64,000 bases of DNA from Candidatus Electrothrix aestuarii (GTDB lineage: Bacteria; Desulfobacterota; Desulfobulbia; Desulfobulbales; Desulfobulbaceae): contig CP159373.1 in assembly GCA_032595685.2 (NCBI GenBank), forward strand, positions 1,509,001 through 1,573,000, given 5' to 3'. Shown here one piece after another: positions 5,994-52,345 of this stretch. The translations under genes and the position numbers were made by a program. Every line of letters starts with the position of its first letter. Within the stretch, counting starts at the first letter, position 1. Under the pieces are notes generated by a model. That model had not been told where the DNA came from. It was given only the letters and a program-made list of their open reading frames with translations, and ran no database searches.

Positions 5994-6039
5994 ATGGTGC
6001 GTCGGCCCCCCCTACCCTTGAAGGATAAGTAACATCTGC

Positions 6040-6154
6040 GAGCATGCTCAAAGTCGGACGATGAGCATGCTCAGGATCGGACGATGACCATGCTGAGGAT
6101 CAAACGATGACCATGCTGAGGGTTGGATGGTGACCAGGCTCATACGCCTCGTAT
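6040..6154. repeat. Five tandem 23-bp repeats
   Basis: Five direct copies of a 23-bp unit, decaying from left to right. The first two contain the perfect palindrome GAGCATGCTC followed by a GTCGGACGAT or ATCGGACGAT tail. The third and fourth read GACCATGCTG, and the fifth is most divergent. No gene covers them convincingly; a 67-codon reverse frame across the area has no protein character. The rest of 5994-6276 holds nothing I recognise. Confidence 0.85.
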
Positions 6155-10142: not shown

Positions 10143-10238
10143 CCGCAGGCCGTCCGCCTCACCCTTTTCCTCCCTTCCCCGACAACCTATGCAGCCATCC
10201 TCGACAGGCTGTCTCGCCTTGCCCGACACGCTGTCGAG

Positions 10239-10305
10239 CGATGCTCCCTCCGACCTTCGGCGATGCTCCCTCCGACCTTCGTACGATGCTCCCTCTGACC
10301 TTCGC
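10239..10305. repeat. Three tandem ~22-bp repeats
   Basis: Three consecutive copies of CGATGCTCCCTCCGACCTTC with 2-3 variable bases (10239-10260, 10261-10283, 10284-10305). Related copies lie inside the broken toxin gene near 10850-10905. The flanks 10195-10240 and 10310-10410 hold other short inverted and direct repeats, such as CTCGACAG/CTGTCGAG and two CCCGATA-type units. No gene is visible in 10143-10549. Confidence 0.8.
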
Positions 10306-10549
10306 CGATAGCACGATCAAGACAAACCCGATAATGCTTTCGGGCGTGCCCGATAGTACTATCGAGACAAGCTCGTTACTCGAATCGGGATAGGCCGGAT
10401 CACAGGTTCGGGTTCCCTGCCCCTCTCTTGTATCTCTCGGAGGATAACGTAAACTTCCGTTGTTGTAACACGAAACAGATGGTATCATGATACAATAGGT
10501 GATGGCAAGGAGTTACAGCTTCAGATATGAACAGCATACAGGAGGCATT

Positions 10550-10768: not shown

Positions 10769-10949
10769 CACCAACATCGTGCTGTACAGCATCGGCAGGG
10801 ATACCAGTAAGAAGGCAACGGCAAGGAACATCCTCGCCCTGCGGCCTTCATACGATACTCCCTCCGACCTTCGTACGATGCTCCCTCTGACCTTCGCCGA
10901 TGCTCCTCCGGTACCAAAAGCAAAGCAGCCCTGCGCGACCCAATCCTGA
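10746..10949 (+). pseudogene. PIN-domain toxin truncated by short repeats
   Basis: The first ~33 codons (MTDLCFVDTNIVLYSIGRD...) are a clear PIN-domain start with the DTN motif. At about 10845 the frame runs into copies of the CTCCCTCCGACCTTCG repeat and reads LRPSYDTPSDLR, which has no PIN character. About 100 residues of toxin are missing, including the remaining catalytic acids. The repeats thus mark, or caused, the deletion. Confidence 0.8.
10850..10910. repeat. Repeats inside broken toxin gene
   Basis: Two to three copies of CGATxCTCCCTCCGACCTTCG, matching the tandem set 600 bp upstream. They replace the body of the PIN toxin gene. Confidence 0.75.
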
Positions 10950-21316: not shown

Positions 21317-22046
21317 ATGAAACCTGCAATCCTGTGTTCTTTCCTCGTACTTATGGTCCTTGCATCCTCTGCATTTGCTATTGACAAGGCCGTTGTCGTT
21401 CCCCTATTCGTTCTCCTTTTTCGTAACCAGCCCGATGTATGTACTGCCCCTCCTGAAACACCGGAGCTCTGTAATGGACTAGATGATGATTGTGATGGAG
21501 TAGTGGATGAGAACTGGCAATTTGATCTCGGTGTCGCATGTGTGGTCGGAGGGGGTATGCCAACGATCTGGAGTCAAAGTTTGTTCTGCAGATGGTTCAG
21601 GTACTGAGTGCAACGCAATTCCAGGAAGTCCTTCACCGGAGCTCTGTAATGGACAAGATGATGATTGCGATGGAGTAGTGGATGAGAACTGGCAATTTGA
21701 TCTCGGTGTCGCATGTGTGGTCGGAGGGGGTATGCCAACGATCTGGAGTCAAAGTTTGTTCTGCAGATGGTTCAGGTACTGAGTGCAACGCAATTCCAGG
21801 AAGTCCTTCACCGGAGCTCTGTAATGGACTAGATGATGATTGTGATGGAGTAGTGGATGAGAACTGGCAATTTGATCTCGGTGTCGCATGTGTGGTCGGA
21901 GAGGGGTATGCCAACGATCTGGAGTCAAAGTTTGTTCTGCAGATGGTTCAGGTACTGAGTGCAACGCAATTCCAGGAAGTCCTTCATCGGAGCTCTGTAA
22001 TGGACTAGATGATGATTGTGATGGATCAATAGACGAGGGGTGCTGA
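21317..22046 (+). pseudogene. Exported MopE-type metal-binding repeat protein, frameshifted
   Basis: A signal peptide (MKPAILCSFLVLMVLASSAF) leads into MopE-like repeats, ELCNGLDDDCDGVVDE, a motif family with putative metal binding. Three near-identical DNA repeats begin at 21462, 21637 and 21812; a last partial unit at 21988 ends GSIDEGC and a stop at 22046. An in-frame unit would be 177 bp (59 residues), but the first two are 175 bp and the third 176 bp, because a G-rich spot (GTCGGAGGGGGTATG) has lost two or one bases. The protein therefore breaks in each unit. AGAAAAGCC precedes ATG 21317. Confidence 0.8.
21462..21987 (+). repeat. Three 175/176-bp direct repeats
   Basis: Units start at CCGGAGCTCTGTAATGGA (21462, 21637, 21812) and are nearly identical over their whole length. 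The first two carry the same 2-bp deletion, so that deletion is older than the duplication. Confidence 0.9.
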
Positions 22047-48249: not shown

Positions 48250-49587
48250 TTTTTATTGTATAGGAAATTATAAAATTTTCCTTTCAACATGTTGTAATTG
48301 CGAATAGAGTATTAGCTTAATGAAAAATAAGCTGATAAAATTAATCTTTCGTGATTTTTGGTATGTAGTCTGCGTTGAATTGGCAAGCAGGTACTCAAGC
48401 CTTCACTGGGAGTCAATCGTTGAAAATGTAGAAAAAATGATCAACTGTGGAGAGTCTACCAATGGCTATGTCGAGTATATTTGTCCGAATTGTTTTGAAA
48501 AAAGAGAGTAGGGTTCACCTGTAAGTGTCGATTCTGTACGTCTTGCGGTAAGCGATACGTCGATGAATGGGTTGAAAAGACAGTGAAAAGTATATTCGAC
48601 GTAGTTCATCGACATTTAGTGTTTACCATTCCACAAGAACTCCGAAAGATAATTTTTAGTGATCGTATGCTGATCAAGATTATGATGGATTGTGCTTCAA
48701 AAGCGGCTGTGGAAGTACTTCAAAGTAAAGGAGTTGATGCTGTTCCGGGAATTCTATTAGTTGTCCATACGTTTGGAAGAGATCTTAAGTTTAATCCGCA
48801 TGTCCATATGTTAATGACAGAAGGAGGATTAACATCTTCCAATCAGTGGGTTGATATTCCATTTTTGCCATATGGTCTGCTTAGAAAAAATGGCAATATT
48901 ATTTGCTGACTGAAATAAAGGCTAGCTTGCCGCAAACAAAAGAAAATGTAAGATTCATAGATTACCTGTTTAAAAGCCAACGTAATGGTTTTTATGTAAA
49001 TGGTAAAAGCAAGATGACATCAGCAAGACATGCAGCTCGATATATTGGTCGCTATATGGCTCGTCCAGCATTGGCAGAGCACAAGATAACGAATTACGAT
49101 GGTGAGGAAGTAACATTTTGGTATATTGATCATAAAACAGAAGTTAAAGTTACCGAAGCGATTCCAGCCAAAGAGTTCATACAACGATTAATTGACCATA
49201 TCCCGCTAAAGGGATTCAAGATGGTCCGCCATTATGGGTTATATTCTCGACGTACAAAAACAATCGCGATAGAGATTTTGATGGACTGTAAACGTTTTAT
49301 CCAGAAGACTTTTGAATTCATGAAAAGTGATTCAAGGTCATTGAGCTGGAGAGAGCGTCTAGTACAGAGTTTCGGGAAAGATCCGTTAACATGTCCAAAC
49401 TGTAAAGAAAAAATGTTTTTATGGCGGATTTGGCATCCTGACTATGGAGATATCTTTGATCTGAGCAGAGACAGATCTTTTGTGGAAAGCAAGAGTAAAC
49501 AAGAATGCAACAAGAGAAACTCTTCGGGTCGGCAGGTTAAGTGGATACCGCAATTGCTTCCGTTTTAATCCGCCCGTAGGGCGTTTT
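48250..49587 (+). mobile_element. IS91-family element, copy 2
   Basis: 1338 bp, nearly identical to copy 1. The left end is TTTTTATTGTATAGG with palindrome GGAAATTATAAAATTTTCC (48263-48281). The right end has the hairpin CGCCCGTAGGGCG and ends in GTTTT next to the target GTTC (49588-49591). No target duplication is present; flanks rejoin cleanly. Confidence 0.93.
48320..49568 (+). pseudogene. IS91-family Y2/HUH transposase, copy 2, frameshifted
   Basis: Same domain order as copy 1. It shares the A6 run (48498-48503) after which the first 63 codons stop. In addition a run near 48885-48890 has A6 where copy 1 has A7, so the frame ends at RKNGNIIC just after the HUH region. The C-terminal part, MLTEIKASLPQ onward (48903-49568), is intact and includes the base lost in copy 1. 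Confidence 0.9.
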
Positions 49588-49589
49588 GT

Positions 49590-50318
49590 TCTTTTGTTTT
49601 AAAGGAACGAGCTGAATTAGTTGCAAAAAGGATTGTAGAAGTTGTACGAGACAAAAGGTATCTTGTTCCAAAGGATCAATGGGACGGTGAATACCCAAAC
49701 AAGATAGACAGCAAGATAAACAAACGGAATAAAAAAAATAGAACAATTGGAAATAAAAAAGAAGGATATGTTTATTTTATTCAAGCAGAAGAAAGGAATA
49801 TTTTCAAAATAGGCTATTCAAAAAACCATCCTAGGACCAGAATAAGAAGCCTTCAAAGCGGTTCTCCATACGATCTTTTTCTGCGTTATTTTTTTTACTC
49901 TATTGACTGTAAAATTGCAGAAAGTAAGGTGCATGAATATCTAAAAGACATTCCTCAGAAAAGAGAATGGTTTTTTATCAGCCCTGTCCAAATCGTAAAA
50001 GCAATAAACCATTTTCACTCCACAATAGATGTAGCTTTAGATTCAAATGATTTTCGGGTGATATCTGGTAAATATTTAGTTTTAAAATCGAGAGTTCGCA
50101 AAGGTTTACGAACTGTTGAAACAGAGAAATGTCCATTTTGCGGAACCAAACATATACATAGCGGAGGCGGGAAAGATTATAAAAAAAACATTGAGGTGCA
50201 AGAAGGAATTAGAACCCTTGGACACCGTAGACCTCATTGTCTGATCAAACACATTGAATTTATAACACCAAATGGCACAGTAGTTAACAATAAGGATGGA
50301 TACTATCTTGGCATCTAG
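49590..50318 (+). pseudogene. T5orf172/GIY-YIG-like protein, 5' end cut by IS91
   Basis: An open frame of 242 codons runs from the IS border. It contains a T5orf172 (MUG113)-type GIY-YIG domain, GYVYFIQAEERNIFKIGYSK, then RTRIRSLQSGSPYDLF, ESKVHEYL and EWFFIS, and a C-terminal zinc-like knuckle (CPFCGTKHIHSG, RRPHC). The N-terminal part KERAELVAKRIVEVVRD is also protein-like. The normal start is missing; without the element the frame opens back to ATG 48204, overlapping the gene upstream. ATG 49929 would remove half of the domain. Confidence 0.7.
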
Positions 50319-50399
50319 TACTAACAAAAAAACTATATGATTATCCCTGTAACTATCTTTTTATCCAACTTAACAAGGCAAACAACCCGTCGTTCACAG

Positions 50400-50825
50400 G
50401 ACGCACCCTTTGTAAAAAACACAGGCTCCTCTTGTAAAACGATGCGCTCCAATGAAAGACAGGAGACCTCCTACTTTTCTGAGGGCCTCTACTTTTTAAA
50501 AAAGTACTGCCCCATTTAAAGAATGGAGGCCCCCTCTTTAAAAAAGGACAGCCACTTTTTAGAAAAGCACAGGCCCTTTTTTAACTCGCGCTAGTCCTTT
50601 TTAAAAAAGCATGACTCCTTTCTTGAAAAGTACCGGCTCTCTTTTAAAAAGGAAGGCTCCTGTGGAAGAAAGTACGAAGCCTCTCCTTAACCGAAGAGCT
50701 ACTTTCTCTAAGAGCAGCTTTCCTGTTTTAAAATGGAGCAGTCCTTTTTTAAGATGAAGCGCTCCTGTCAAAGAAAGCACGAGACCTTTTTTTAAAAGAA
50801 GCTCTCCTTTCTTTGCTAGCACTCC
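50400..50825. repeat. ~20-unit 21-bp phased palindrome array
   Basis: Degenerate repeats of a pyrimidine-TTAA-purine motif, for example TCCTTTTTAAAAAAGCA and CTCTTTTAAAAAGGAAG. Unit centres lie about 21 bp apart (20-23 by eye). In 50601-50822 a minus-strand frame shows exact seven-residue periodicity (for instance LHLKKGL, LHFKTGK, VLFKKGV), so the period is 21 there. Units at about 50658 and 50763 (CTCCTGTxxAAGAAAG) are 105 bp apart, hinting at a five-unit higher order. No gene is visible in 50319-50900. Confidence 0.85.
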
Positions 50826-50900
50826 ACATTTTTGAGAAAGAAGATACCCTCAGCAACAAACAGGAGCATCGAACAAAGTGTTCCTTCAAGGAAAGACAGT

Positions 50901-51467
50901 ATGAACAGGCCGGATCTGACAGCAAAACGACACTACACGGTTGATGATTATGCCTCATGGAACGACGGCCAACGCTATGAACTCCTGCACGGGGATGTCC
51001 ATGCAATGACGCCTGCGCCGAGCTGGCTGCATCAGGTGGTTTCAGCAAACCTGGGCTTTGAAATCCAGGCACGTTTGCGCTCCATGAAAAAATGCCATCT
51101 TGTTCATGCGCCTATTGATGTTTACCTCTTAAATGATACAGTGGTGCAACCGGATATCATCGTTGTTTGTGACCCGAAAAAAATCGAAAAGAAAGGTTGT
51201 GTCGGCGCACCCGACCTTGTCGTAGAAATTCTTTCTCCCTCTACAGCAAAGACAGACTGGAAGGATAAATACGCCCTCTATGAAACAGCAGGTGTGCGTG
51301 AGTACTGGATCGTTAACCCCGAAGACACCCTTGTGCATGTCTTCCGCCTCAGCGAAAAAAAGTTCCACCTGGAGAACACCTATTCTCTTGAGAATACTGT
51401 ACCGATCGGTATTTTTGATGACGTGGTGATAGACCTGAAAAATGTCTTTGAAAACGACAGGGATTGA
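50901..51467 (+). CDS. Uma2-family putative endonuclease
   Basis: PD-(D/E)XK-fold Uma2 protein of 188 aa, with the full motif set: YTVDDYASWNDGQRYELLHG, VQPDIIVVCDP, APDLVVEILSPST, DWKDKYALYETAGVREYWIV. AAGGAAAG precedes ATG 50901. The family is abundant in cyanobacteria and sulfate reducers but its role is unproven. It ends 66 bases before dapB and belongs to the accessory block between dapA and dapB. Confidence 0.88.
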   Translation: MNRPDLTAKRHYTVDDYASWNDGQRYELLHGDVHAMTPAPSWLHQVVSANLGFEIQARLRSMKKCHLVHAPIDVYLLNDTVVQPDIIVVCDPKKIEKKGCVGAPDLVVEILSPSTAKTDWKDKYALYETAGVREYWIVNPEDTLVHVFRLSEKKFHLENTYSLENTVPIGIFDDVVIDLKNVFENDRD

Positions 51468-51532
51468 GTATCTTCGGTACACCAAAAGACGAATGGCAGA
51501 AAATAAATATTTAACCAAAAGAATAGAACAAT

Positions 51533-52345
51533 ATGACCAAAGTAATTGTAGCCGGAGCCTCCGGTCGGATGGGACAACGCATCTGTTATATGGTAGATCA
51601 ACACCCGGACCTTACCCTGGCTGGTGCCTTTGAACAGGCCAGCAATCCTAATGTGGGTAAGGACGCCGGTGAAATTGCCGGAATTGGCACTTCAGGAGTG
51701 ATCATCGCTGACAGCCTGGAAAAGGTAATTGATGACGGAGAGGTCATCATTGATTTTACCTTCCACAAAGCCACAATGGAATTTGTCAAGATAGCAGCCA
51801 AACATGGCCGAGCTATGGTTATCGGAACCACCGGTCTCAGCGCTGATGACCTGACCATACTCCGCAATACCGCAGCCGAACACTTCCCCTGCGTTCAGGC
51901 CCCGAATATGGCCGTGGGCGTGAATGTCCTGTTCAAGCTGGTGGAAAAGGCCGCTGCTGTACTGGGTGATTCCTATGATGTGGAAATCGTTGAGGCCCAT
52001 CACCGGATGAAAAAGGATGCACCCTCTGGAACAGCTCTGAAGATCGGGGAAATGGCAGCCAAGGGCTTAGGGCGTGATTTGGCCAAGGTTGGTGTTTTTG
52101 AACGTAATGGTATTATCGGTGAGCGCACAGATCAGGAAATCGGCATCCAGACTATTCGGGCCGGAGACATCGTTGGTGAGCATACCGCCTATTTTGCTGG
52201 CCCAGGCGAGCGGATTGAGATCACCCACCGAGCCCACAGCCGGGATAACTTTGCTGGTGGCGCAGCCAAGGCTGCCGCCTGGGTCGTGAGCCAACCCAAG
52301 GGACTCTACACCATGTTCGATGTTCTGGGACTCTCAGAGTTCTGA
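51533..52345 (+). CDS. dapB: 4-hydroxy-tetrahydrodipicolinate reductase
   Basis: NAD(P)H-dependent reductase of 270 aa, second step after DapA. Nucleotide motif VIVAGASGRMGQRI, catalytic segment EIVEAHHRMKKDAPSGTAL with the tandem His, and ITHRAHSRDNFAGGA are diagnostic. folK follows at ~100 bases. Confidence 0.96.
   Translation: MTKVIVAGASGRMGQRICYMVDQHPDLTLAGAFEQASNPNVGKDAGEIAGIGTSGVIIADSLEKVIDDGEVIIDFTFHKATMEFVKIAAKHGRAMVIGTTGLSADDLTILRNTAAEHFPCVQAPNMAVGVNVLFKLVEKAAAVLGDSYDVEIVEAHHRMKKDAPSGTALKIGEMAAKGLGRDLAKVGVFERNGIIGERTDQEIGIQTIRAGDIVGEHTAYFAGPGERIEITHRAHSRDNFAGGAAKAAAWVVSQPKGLYTMFDVLGLSEF

Follow-up and report, generated by a model that had tools for sequence, protein, structure and literature searches.

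In the genome of Candidatus Electrothrix aestuarii, a row of palindromic units repeated every 21 bp lies between the remains of a transposase gene and a Uma2-dapB gene pair. The question raised by this locus is what sort of element the row represents, and whether it stands alone or belongs to a wider class. The window analyzed here is the whole 64,000-nucleotide stretch that contains it, and the assembly from which it was taken (G000) is a single 5.11-Mb contig.

Structure of the array in the window

The original prediction placed twenty units over about 425 bp, at positions 50400-50825. The array itself proved to be real, but it has 21 units and ends near 50844 rather than at 50825. The features of the locus are as follows.

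50404..50844, no strand assigned: array of 21 units of 21 bp in register, with a dyad-symmetric consensus of about GCTCCTTTTTTAAAAAGAACC; very probably an orphan of the array family described below
50488..50823, no strand assigned: part of the array that contributed three four-unit windows to the search model R1
50662..50884, no strand assigned: Uma2-proximal part of the array up to and including its edge; a close relative, G007 (locus L179), has nearly the same sequence here but other units in the distal half
50601..50822, minus strand: 73-aa heptad open frame (LFKKGAV-like), judged to be a by-product of the 21-bp unit and not a gene
50901..51467, plus strand: Uma2-family gene (PF05685), which occupies the place of the small-protein gene after the array; same order in L179, L200 and L197
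51533..52345, plus strand: dapB, the downstream synteny anchor
48583..49568, plus strand: interrupted Y2 (IS91-like) transposase gene on the upstream side of the array; NCBIfam IS91 model 124.0 bits, cut-off 125

Across 50400-50825, identity at a lag of 21 bp was 0.521, compared with 0.257 ± 0.024 in 2000 dinucleotide shuffles, and further autocorrelation peaks appeared at lags 42, 63, 84, 105 and 126. The proposed 21-bp period is thus far above what shuffled DNA gives. Twenty of the 21 units share one phase, while the units differ from their own consensus at a mean of 33% of positions, in agreement with the proposal that the sequence drifts and the period and symmetry stay. The dyad symmetry of the consensus was not equalled in any of 200 column permutations. 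The usual core of the units is C-TTTT-nnn-AAAA-G, and a second dyad centre lies between units. A pyrimidine-TTAA-purine motif had been predicted for every unit; TTAA is present in 10 of the 21 and YTTAAR in only 8, so that the palindromic 21-bp unit was upheld and the motif was not.

Two further suggestions had to be given up. When the order of the units was shuffled, the largest excess at multiples of 21 had z = 2.0, a value reached by 367 of 2000 shuffles, and the possible 105-bp higher-order period was rejected. The power of AA/TT in the array was 11.45 at 21.0 bp and 0.05 at 10.5 bp, which speaks against phased A-tracts and, judged from this periodicity rather than from a curvature model, against curved DNA.

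This is the sole lag-21 array found within the 64-kb window. The heptamer TAACTGA is absent from both of its strands, and lags 7 and 14 show no peak. Its units are contiguous at 21 bp, without the unrelated spacers of a CRISPR-like layout. Rfam gave 11 matches in 49500-51600, none of them at the gathering score. A scan of 50250-50960 for promoters and terminators returned, on the minus strand, one site resembling a promoter (shuffles 0.8) and three resembling terminators (shuffles 0.8 ± 1.1).

Other repeats were observed in the same genome. Tandem arrays with a period of 22-23 bp occur in the window at 6038-6150, 10224-10310 and 10826-10910, in L101 (11641-11778) and in L105 (14890-15090). Several of them have palindromic cores (GAGCATGCTC, CAGCATGCTG, CCTTCGAGCGAGG), and they are possibly a second array class of G000 with a different period. 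A 175-bp tandem repeat with 3.2 copies matching at 98% lies at window positions 21459-22025.

Gene neighbourhood and conservation of the locus

Eight window ORFs beside the array were scanned against Pfam. The neighbours matched were Uma2, dapB, dapA and the Y2 transposase; no partition-type NTPase was present among the eight ORFs, nor any replication initiator among the matched neighbours. Among named relatives, DapB is closest to that of Desulfobulbaceae MAG S24.Bin023 (94%), followed by Ca. Electrothrix marina (93%) and Ca. E. aarhusensis (92%), as befits the genome of a Ca. Electrothrix-like cable bacterium. The IS91-like transposase adjoining the array is broken into several frames (window 48300-50318), and L016, the locus of S24.Bin023, has a different gene there.

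An array also precedes the Uma2-dapB pair in G007 (L179), G001 (L200) and G003 (L197). At this position the arrays of the four genomes have diverged by 14-19%, and no member of the small-protein family described below lies between array and Uma2 in any of them. Between G000 and G007, the half of the array on the Uma2 side is near-identical and the far half has been replaced. By reading of the E. marina and E. aarhusensis contigs, neither an array nor Uma2 is found directly upstream of dapB.

Related arrays across genomes

The search for similar arrays that the original prediction had called for returned at least 13 in the window's own genome and more in its relatives. Model R1, built from sequence only with 23 four-unit windows, matched seven loci of G000 at E < 1e-3. 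The 73-aa heptad ORF, used for a protein-level search of the same genome, led to further places, six with a 21-bp period; it had no match in plasmids. The total of at least 13 includes arrays found through the gene described below and diverged ones at 411.5 kb and 2152 kb, and it is a lower bound in that R1 scored 150 of 1589 first-look candidates. Unbiased sampling of G000, in 20 stretches of 20 kb, turned up a single lag-21 array (L103), and none at lags 19, 20 or 22.

Among 37 genomes, R1 matched ten, the window's own included: 7 of 8 in the genus, 3 of 16 others in the family and 0 of 13 others in the order. These ten are the nine genomes that also carry the linked gene and the marginal G017. 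One array of another genus, L208 (G013, contig C418), is 95.5% identical to L193 of G003 over 1 kb; it is likely contamination or a recent transfer, and G013 cannot be counted as independent.

For comparison between loci, a set of 76 arrays was assembled, which includes orthologues. Its 18 orphan arrays, meaning arrays with no family gene alongside, were hand-picked from the fetched loci, and one of them, the presumed orphan L202, reaches a contig end. Left outside the set were L230 and L243, which lack an array; six fragments of the gene, two of which have arrays; five held-out genes of genome G531; L201 and L209; L179, L182, L183, L186 and L200, as orthologues of included rows; L175, L180, L184, L185 and similar loci already represented under another number; and second arrays in some loci. 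L201 is 0.83 self-similar and not palindromic.

A small-protein gene family downstream of the arrays

Many of the fetched arrays stop just upstream of a small ORF, and eleven such ORFs align as one family (A3). The protein has about 115-120 aa, is multi-copy and bears a C-terminal (F/Y)GxDSxEYxMxGGxRxSxxxK motif. A second branch (A4) starts with MA(Y/F) and contains DPNLDLG. The five A3 members scanned gave nothing above cut-off in Pfam or NCBIfam, and no ribbon-helix-helix (RHH), winged-helix or other known DNA-binding match, nor any known Rep, was found for the linked protein in Pfam, NCBIfam, PHROGs, PADLOC and PDB sequences. Among the weak matches, one protein reached a PHROG of unknown function (E 8e-4). 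A designed DARPin (6mol) gave a low whole-sequence E with no single stretch passing alone, and was rejected. In ten pairs dN/dS was 0.07-0.27; the linked gene is a real protein gene under purifying selection.

The A3 gene was found in 9 of the 37 genomes, all of which have arrays; G004 and G006 contain fragments only. In a sample of 395 genomes of the phylum, A3 matched in the window's own genome only. Across the order, A4 was found in 10 of 193 genomes, all from two genera, and in a class sample in 5 of 97 genomes, from the same two genera. The A4 branch also matches plasmid pA of the cyanobacterium Kovacikia minuta CCNUW1 at two places; one of these copies lies at NZ_CP083583.1 53613-53924. 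This was the only plasmid match of the family, and phages and viral contigs gave none. In L245 (3942-4190), on the same plasmid, an array with a 41-bp period lies downstream of a copy of the family gene.

To measure the association, 66 family members were oriented and up to 1400 bp upstream of each was taken; a pass was a period of 21 or 42 with a score of at least 0.42, and genes with at least 75 model positions were treated as full-length. Such an array lies upstream of 58 of the 60 full-length genes, both Kovacikia minuta pA copies being counted among the 58. None of 600 random 1400-bp stretches of G000 passed, though 22 reached the score with another period, and none of 280 tiles from a 400-kb G000 sample passed; the orphan L103, which lies in that sample near the end of a stretch, was not registered by these controls. 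The six gene fragments were tallied separately, and two have arrays. Both misses have foreign-looking sequence next to the gene: in L230 an ISKra4 transposase immediately precedes it, and L243 has ORFs that look by eye like a transposase, the one scanned being without an NCBIfam match. In the held-out genome G531, four of five genes passed and the fifth had best periods of 42 and 21 with a score of 0.394, below the threshold; this count covers the five larger matches and leaves out two further fragment matches. With orthologues and duplicates among them, the 58 linked arrays do not count as independent cases, so that Fisher values are formal only; they span two clearly different gene branches and a second phylum. 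Arrays and gene family go together, and the array in the window very probably belongs to this gene-linked family.

In a narrow literature search, with most subscription journals outside its scope, no match to the motif strings of the protein was found and no description of 21-bp arrays with small proteins was recognized. In the parts available of the cable-bacteria genome papers (PMC10926707, PMC10030654, PMC10580974), only long near-identical repeats, repeats in general and protein repeats are mentioned. A 29-copy hypothetical protein, which might conceivably belong to the linked family, has matches in other Beggiatoaceae and some cyanobacteria according to PMC4679880.

Symmetry, register and turnover of the units

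The dyad of the unit consensus exceeded 95% of column permutations in 61 of the 76 arrays, with differing letters. The dyad did not reach significance in the other 15, namely L231, the two Kovacikia arrays and every one of the 12 arrays of an AACAA/TTGTT type. Consensuses are unlike between arrays, even within one genome, with cores such as CTTTTnnnAAAAG, CTCTTnnnAAGAG and GCAATTnAATTGC; L267 has a near-perfect 20-bp palindrome and L264 is G+C-rich. The unit sequence is free and the 21-bp period is fixed. In L008/L174, L005/L176 and L003/L175 a second unit type, with the right half nCTCGCRC instead of AAAAAGG, is interspersed with normal units.

Across the set, 981 of 1106 units stand at phase 0 despite a mean divergence of 36% from consensus, a count that is partly circular because the arrays were found by their period and shifted ones would be trimmed. 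Fewer than 60% of units are in phase in three arrays (L251, L197 and L189). Between related arrays, forced global alignments gave 63 of 78 gaps that were not multiples of 21, partly because unlike halves were forced together. A diagonal test was used instead, in which most of the diagonals carrying shared 14-mers were separated by multiples of 21, with one-base shifts in some pairs.

Within units, no compensation between the arms was detected: 3872 of 7686 pairs, against a fraction of 0.499 after shuffling (z 1.0). Core pairing in L003, L005 and L008 was below the within-array shuffle. Absence of compensation is expected if half-sites are read separately by the subunits of a dimer, and is not expected of RNA hairpins kept by pairing. 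From one array to another, both half-sites have changed jointly, as a change in the specificity of a homodimer would produce.

Turnover differs between loci. The orphan arrays L177 and L182 are 99.2% identical, while the surrounding 2.56 kb including the arrays is 96.9% identical; the arrays of the pairs L172/L180 and L174/L186 change faster than their own flanks. Divergence is slightly higher in orphan arrays than in linked ones (0.379 vs 0.349, p = 0.012), which fits a slow decay. At L187 (G006, the same locus as L175) and at L172 (compared with L180), the array is kept and the gene is absent, relatives having the gene. G000 has no complete gene of the subtype that goes with two of its orphan arrays, L172 and L173. 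Signs of very recent unit expansion were observed in L194 (2689-3094), L257 and L258, where self-similarity is 94-96%. The L194 array reads SLNVSGA repeatedly in one frame (cf. L231).

The original prediction had preferred a protein-coated structure to a simple minisatellite, and the period indeed stays the same from locus to locus, between species and in a second phylum, even as the sequence changes. A neutral minisatellite does not describe arrays that are tied to a gene and that keep register and dyad at 36% divergence; the window orphan alone may decay slowly.

Position of the arrays relative to promoters

In 42 of the 58 linked arrays, the array ends less than 90 bp from the gene match, and many of these gaps carry a strong ribosome site. 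The other 16 have gaps of at least 90 bp, and in 12 of them a TTGACA-17-TA hexamer pair lies between array and gene.

Arrays with a TTGACA box: L235, L240, L242, L256-L259, L262, L265, L266, L268, L269

The long-gap arrays without this box are L231 (gap 92), L271 and both Kovacikia copies. The 12 arrays with the box are exactly the 12 AACAA/TTGTT-type arrays that lack a significant dyad, and array symmetry and promoter layout look as if they had changed together. These 12 arrays likely lie upstream of a promoter. Just upstream of the PKLL-type arrays L210, L211, L212, L219 and L227, a TTGCGC-17-TATCAA-like site was seen by eye; it is a candidate promoter, from which the five arrays would probably be transcribed. 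Sites upstream of arrays did not stand out in a generic promoter scan. By these predicted layouts, the arrays that can be placed outside the transcript are not clearly palindromic, and the palindromic arrays may be transcribed. A role at the DNA level would be the common denominator of both layouts.

Comparison with known repeat systems

The repeat units of parC, tubC and parS are about 7-12 bp or 20 bp long. In type II and type III partition systems (parC/ParR, tubC/TubR) and in type Ib (parS/Omega), a small protein has an upstream repeat array that doubles as its operator, as set out in PMC5016525. Tandem repeats next to a small-protein gene are shared by 58 of 60 family genes and not by the window orphan, and both the protein and the array come in several variants, so that the layout would resemble parC/ParR or tubC/TubR. 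Partition systems, however, are plasmid-borne and have an NTPase partner and RHH or winged-helix proteins, whereas the present arrays have 21-bp units, many chromosomal copies per genome, no partner seen (the neighbouring ORFs of 40 loci were heterogeneous by eye) and a protein that matched no known fold in sequence searches. With no partner or such fold seen and a chromosomal, multi-copy setting, we do not file the family there, and we consider it quite improbable that the array is a partition centromere with the small protein as its ParR or TubR.

The iterons of plasmid replicons are also tandem sites at about two helical turns. They adjoin a Rep gene, whereas the arrays adjoin a protein of about 115 aa of no known family, at many loci per chromosome. 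REP and BIME elements are dispersed intergenic palindromes with one sequence per genome and do not form long phased tandem arrays beside one gene. The arrays are likewise dispersed palindromes, but their unit consensuses differ within one genome. Arrays of the heptamer TAACTGA, described in PMC4679880, are intergenic, lie upstream of genes and occur in Beggiatoaceae, cyanobacteria and Bacteroidetes. They are the nearest printed phenomenon found; they differ in having 7-bp units of fixed sequence beside unrelated genes, against 21-bp units of free sequence beside one gene family. No known family tested fits the array in the window.

Alternative explanations

The array could act as RNA, that is, as the 5' leader of the small gene forming a string of hairpins that is read by a protein or the ribosome. 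The short gaps and ribosome sites of most linked arrays would suit such a leader, as would the five arrays that are probably transcribed from the TTGCGC-type site; in addition, bar L231 and the Kovacikia copies, the dyad-less linked arrays are the very 12 that lie upstream of a TTGACA box. Hairpins would nevertheless call for arm compensation, which is lacking within arrays, and 12 long-gap cable-bacterium genes have a likely promoter between array and gene; the lack of Rfam matches at the gathering score in 49500-51600 of the window and the outcome of the generic promoter scan also count against it. We regard an RNA role as unlikely, though it deserves to be taken seriously. Another alternative is a present or former gene encoding heptad repeats, which would read LFKKGAV on the minus strand of this array and SLVKRGx in others. 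In its favour, seven codons make 21 bp, 24 of 76 arrays have an open frame, and in L206 a frame spans the array and carries on into the small gene. When the lowest stop count among the six frames was summed over the arrays, the total was 96, against 118 ± 7 in column shuffles, a small bias in the same direction. The 24 open-frame arrays compare with 23.8 expected, however, and 52 of 76 arrays are stopped in every frame. A codon-position bias at p < 0.05 was seen in just 1 of 15 related-array pairs, and past the 73-aa minus-strand ORF the same-strand match crosses three TAA codons. With open-frame counts at expectation and no codon-position signal, coding heptads were rejected as very improbable; the conserved minus-strand heptad protein that would have spoken against the original prediction is not supported by substitutions without codon periodicity. 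In L206 (1674-2270), the heptad-reading array and the small-protein gene form a single 198-aa frame.

Whatever the linked arrays do, the array in the window might have become functionless when its family gene was lost, and persist as a relic by inertia only. It has no family gene between itself and Uma2 in the four genomes compared, gene loss with retention of the array is seen at L187 and L172, and orphan arrays are slightly more diverged. Against this, its phase (20 of 21 units) and its dyad are intact, its position is constant in G000, G007, G001 and G003 despite their 14-19% divergence, and the orphans L177 and L182 are more alike than the 2.56 kb around them. A relic is a real possibility for this one locus, if not a probable one. 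The many dispersed copies, two of them on one contig (L188), the orphan arrays and an identical unit common to the non-allelic arrays L172 and L173 could also point to a mobile or self-copying unit of array and gene, in which the array would be the site used in movement. Yet no recurrent transposase or recombinase was seen by eye beside the unit, and several arrays hold their position between species, and we find this explanation improbable.

Proposed function

The explanation that we prefer, with a confidence that stays a little short of even, is that the window array is an orphan cis-acting element of a kind that normally lies directly upstream of the small gene family and forms a row of putative dimer sites. 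Protein-coated, phased DNA, as originally predicted, is thus the best surviving reading, its curvature part having been dropped. Each 21-bp unit would be the site of a symmetric protein dimer. A spacing of exactly two turns of B-DNA would place all dimers on one face of the helix, where they could bind cooperatively and build a filament or a wrapped complex. The likeliest ligand would be the linked small protein, which might act through the array to regulate the gene that encodes it, in the manner of centromere-binding repressors, with a separate protein variant for each type of array. This binding mechanism is put forward tentatively, as quite conceivable rather than probable, because the arrays whose promoter positions argue for a DNA-level role are those in which the dyad is not significant.

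Orphan arrays would arise by loss of the gene, as in L187 and L172, or by copying of an array alone. With no family gene near it, the array in the window may be bound by a family protein in trans; such an orphan could dock a related protein, influence Uma2-dapB, or decay. A wider and rather doubtful reading is that of a module made of a protein and its own 21-bp array of free sequence, present in each genome as many diverged, self-recognizing pairs that form phased nucleoprotein filaments, with orphans as docking sites in trans. As part of that reading, the module would be common to multicellular cable bacteria and a cyanobacterium.

If the explanation is right, a defined DNA target could be assigned to an unnamed protein family that occurs in many copies in cable bacteria and also in a cyanobacterium, and this would be the first handle on its function. 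The arrays would also constitute a natural experiment, with the spacing kept and the DNA code rewritten many times, so that the joint change of protein and site specificity could be asked about, and the rule that links array and gene can be used for finding members in other genomes.
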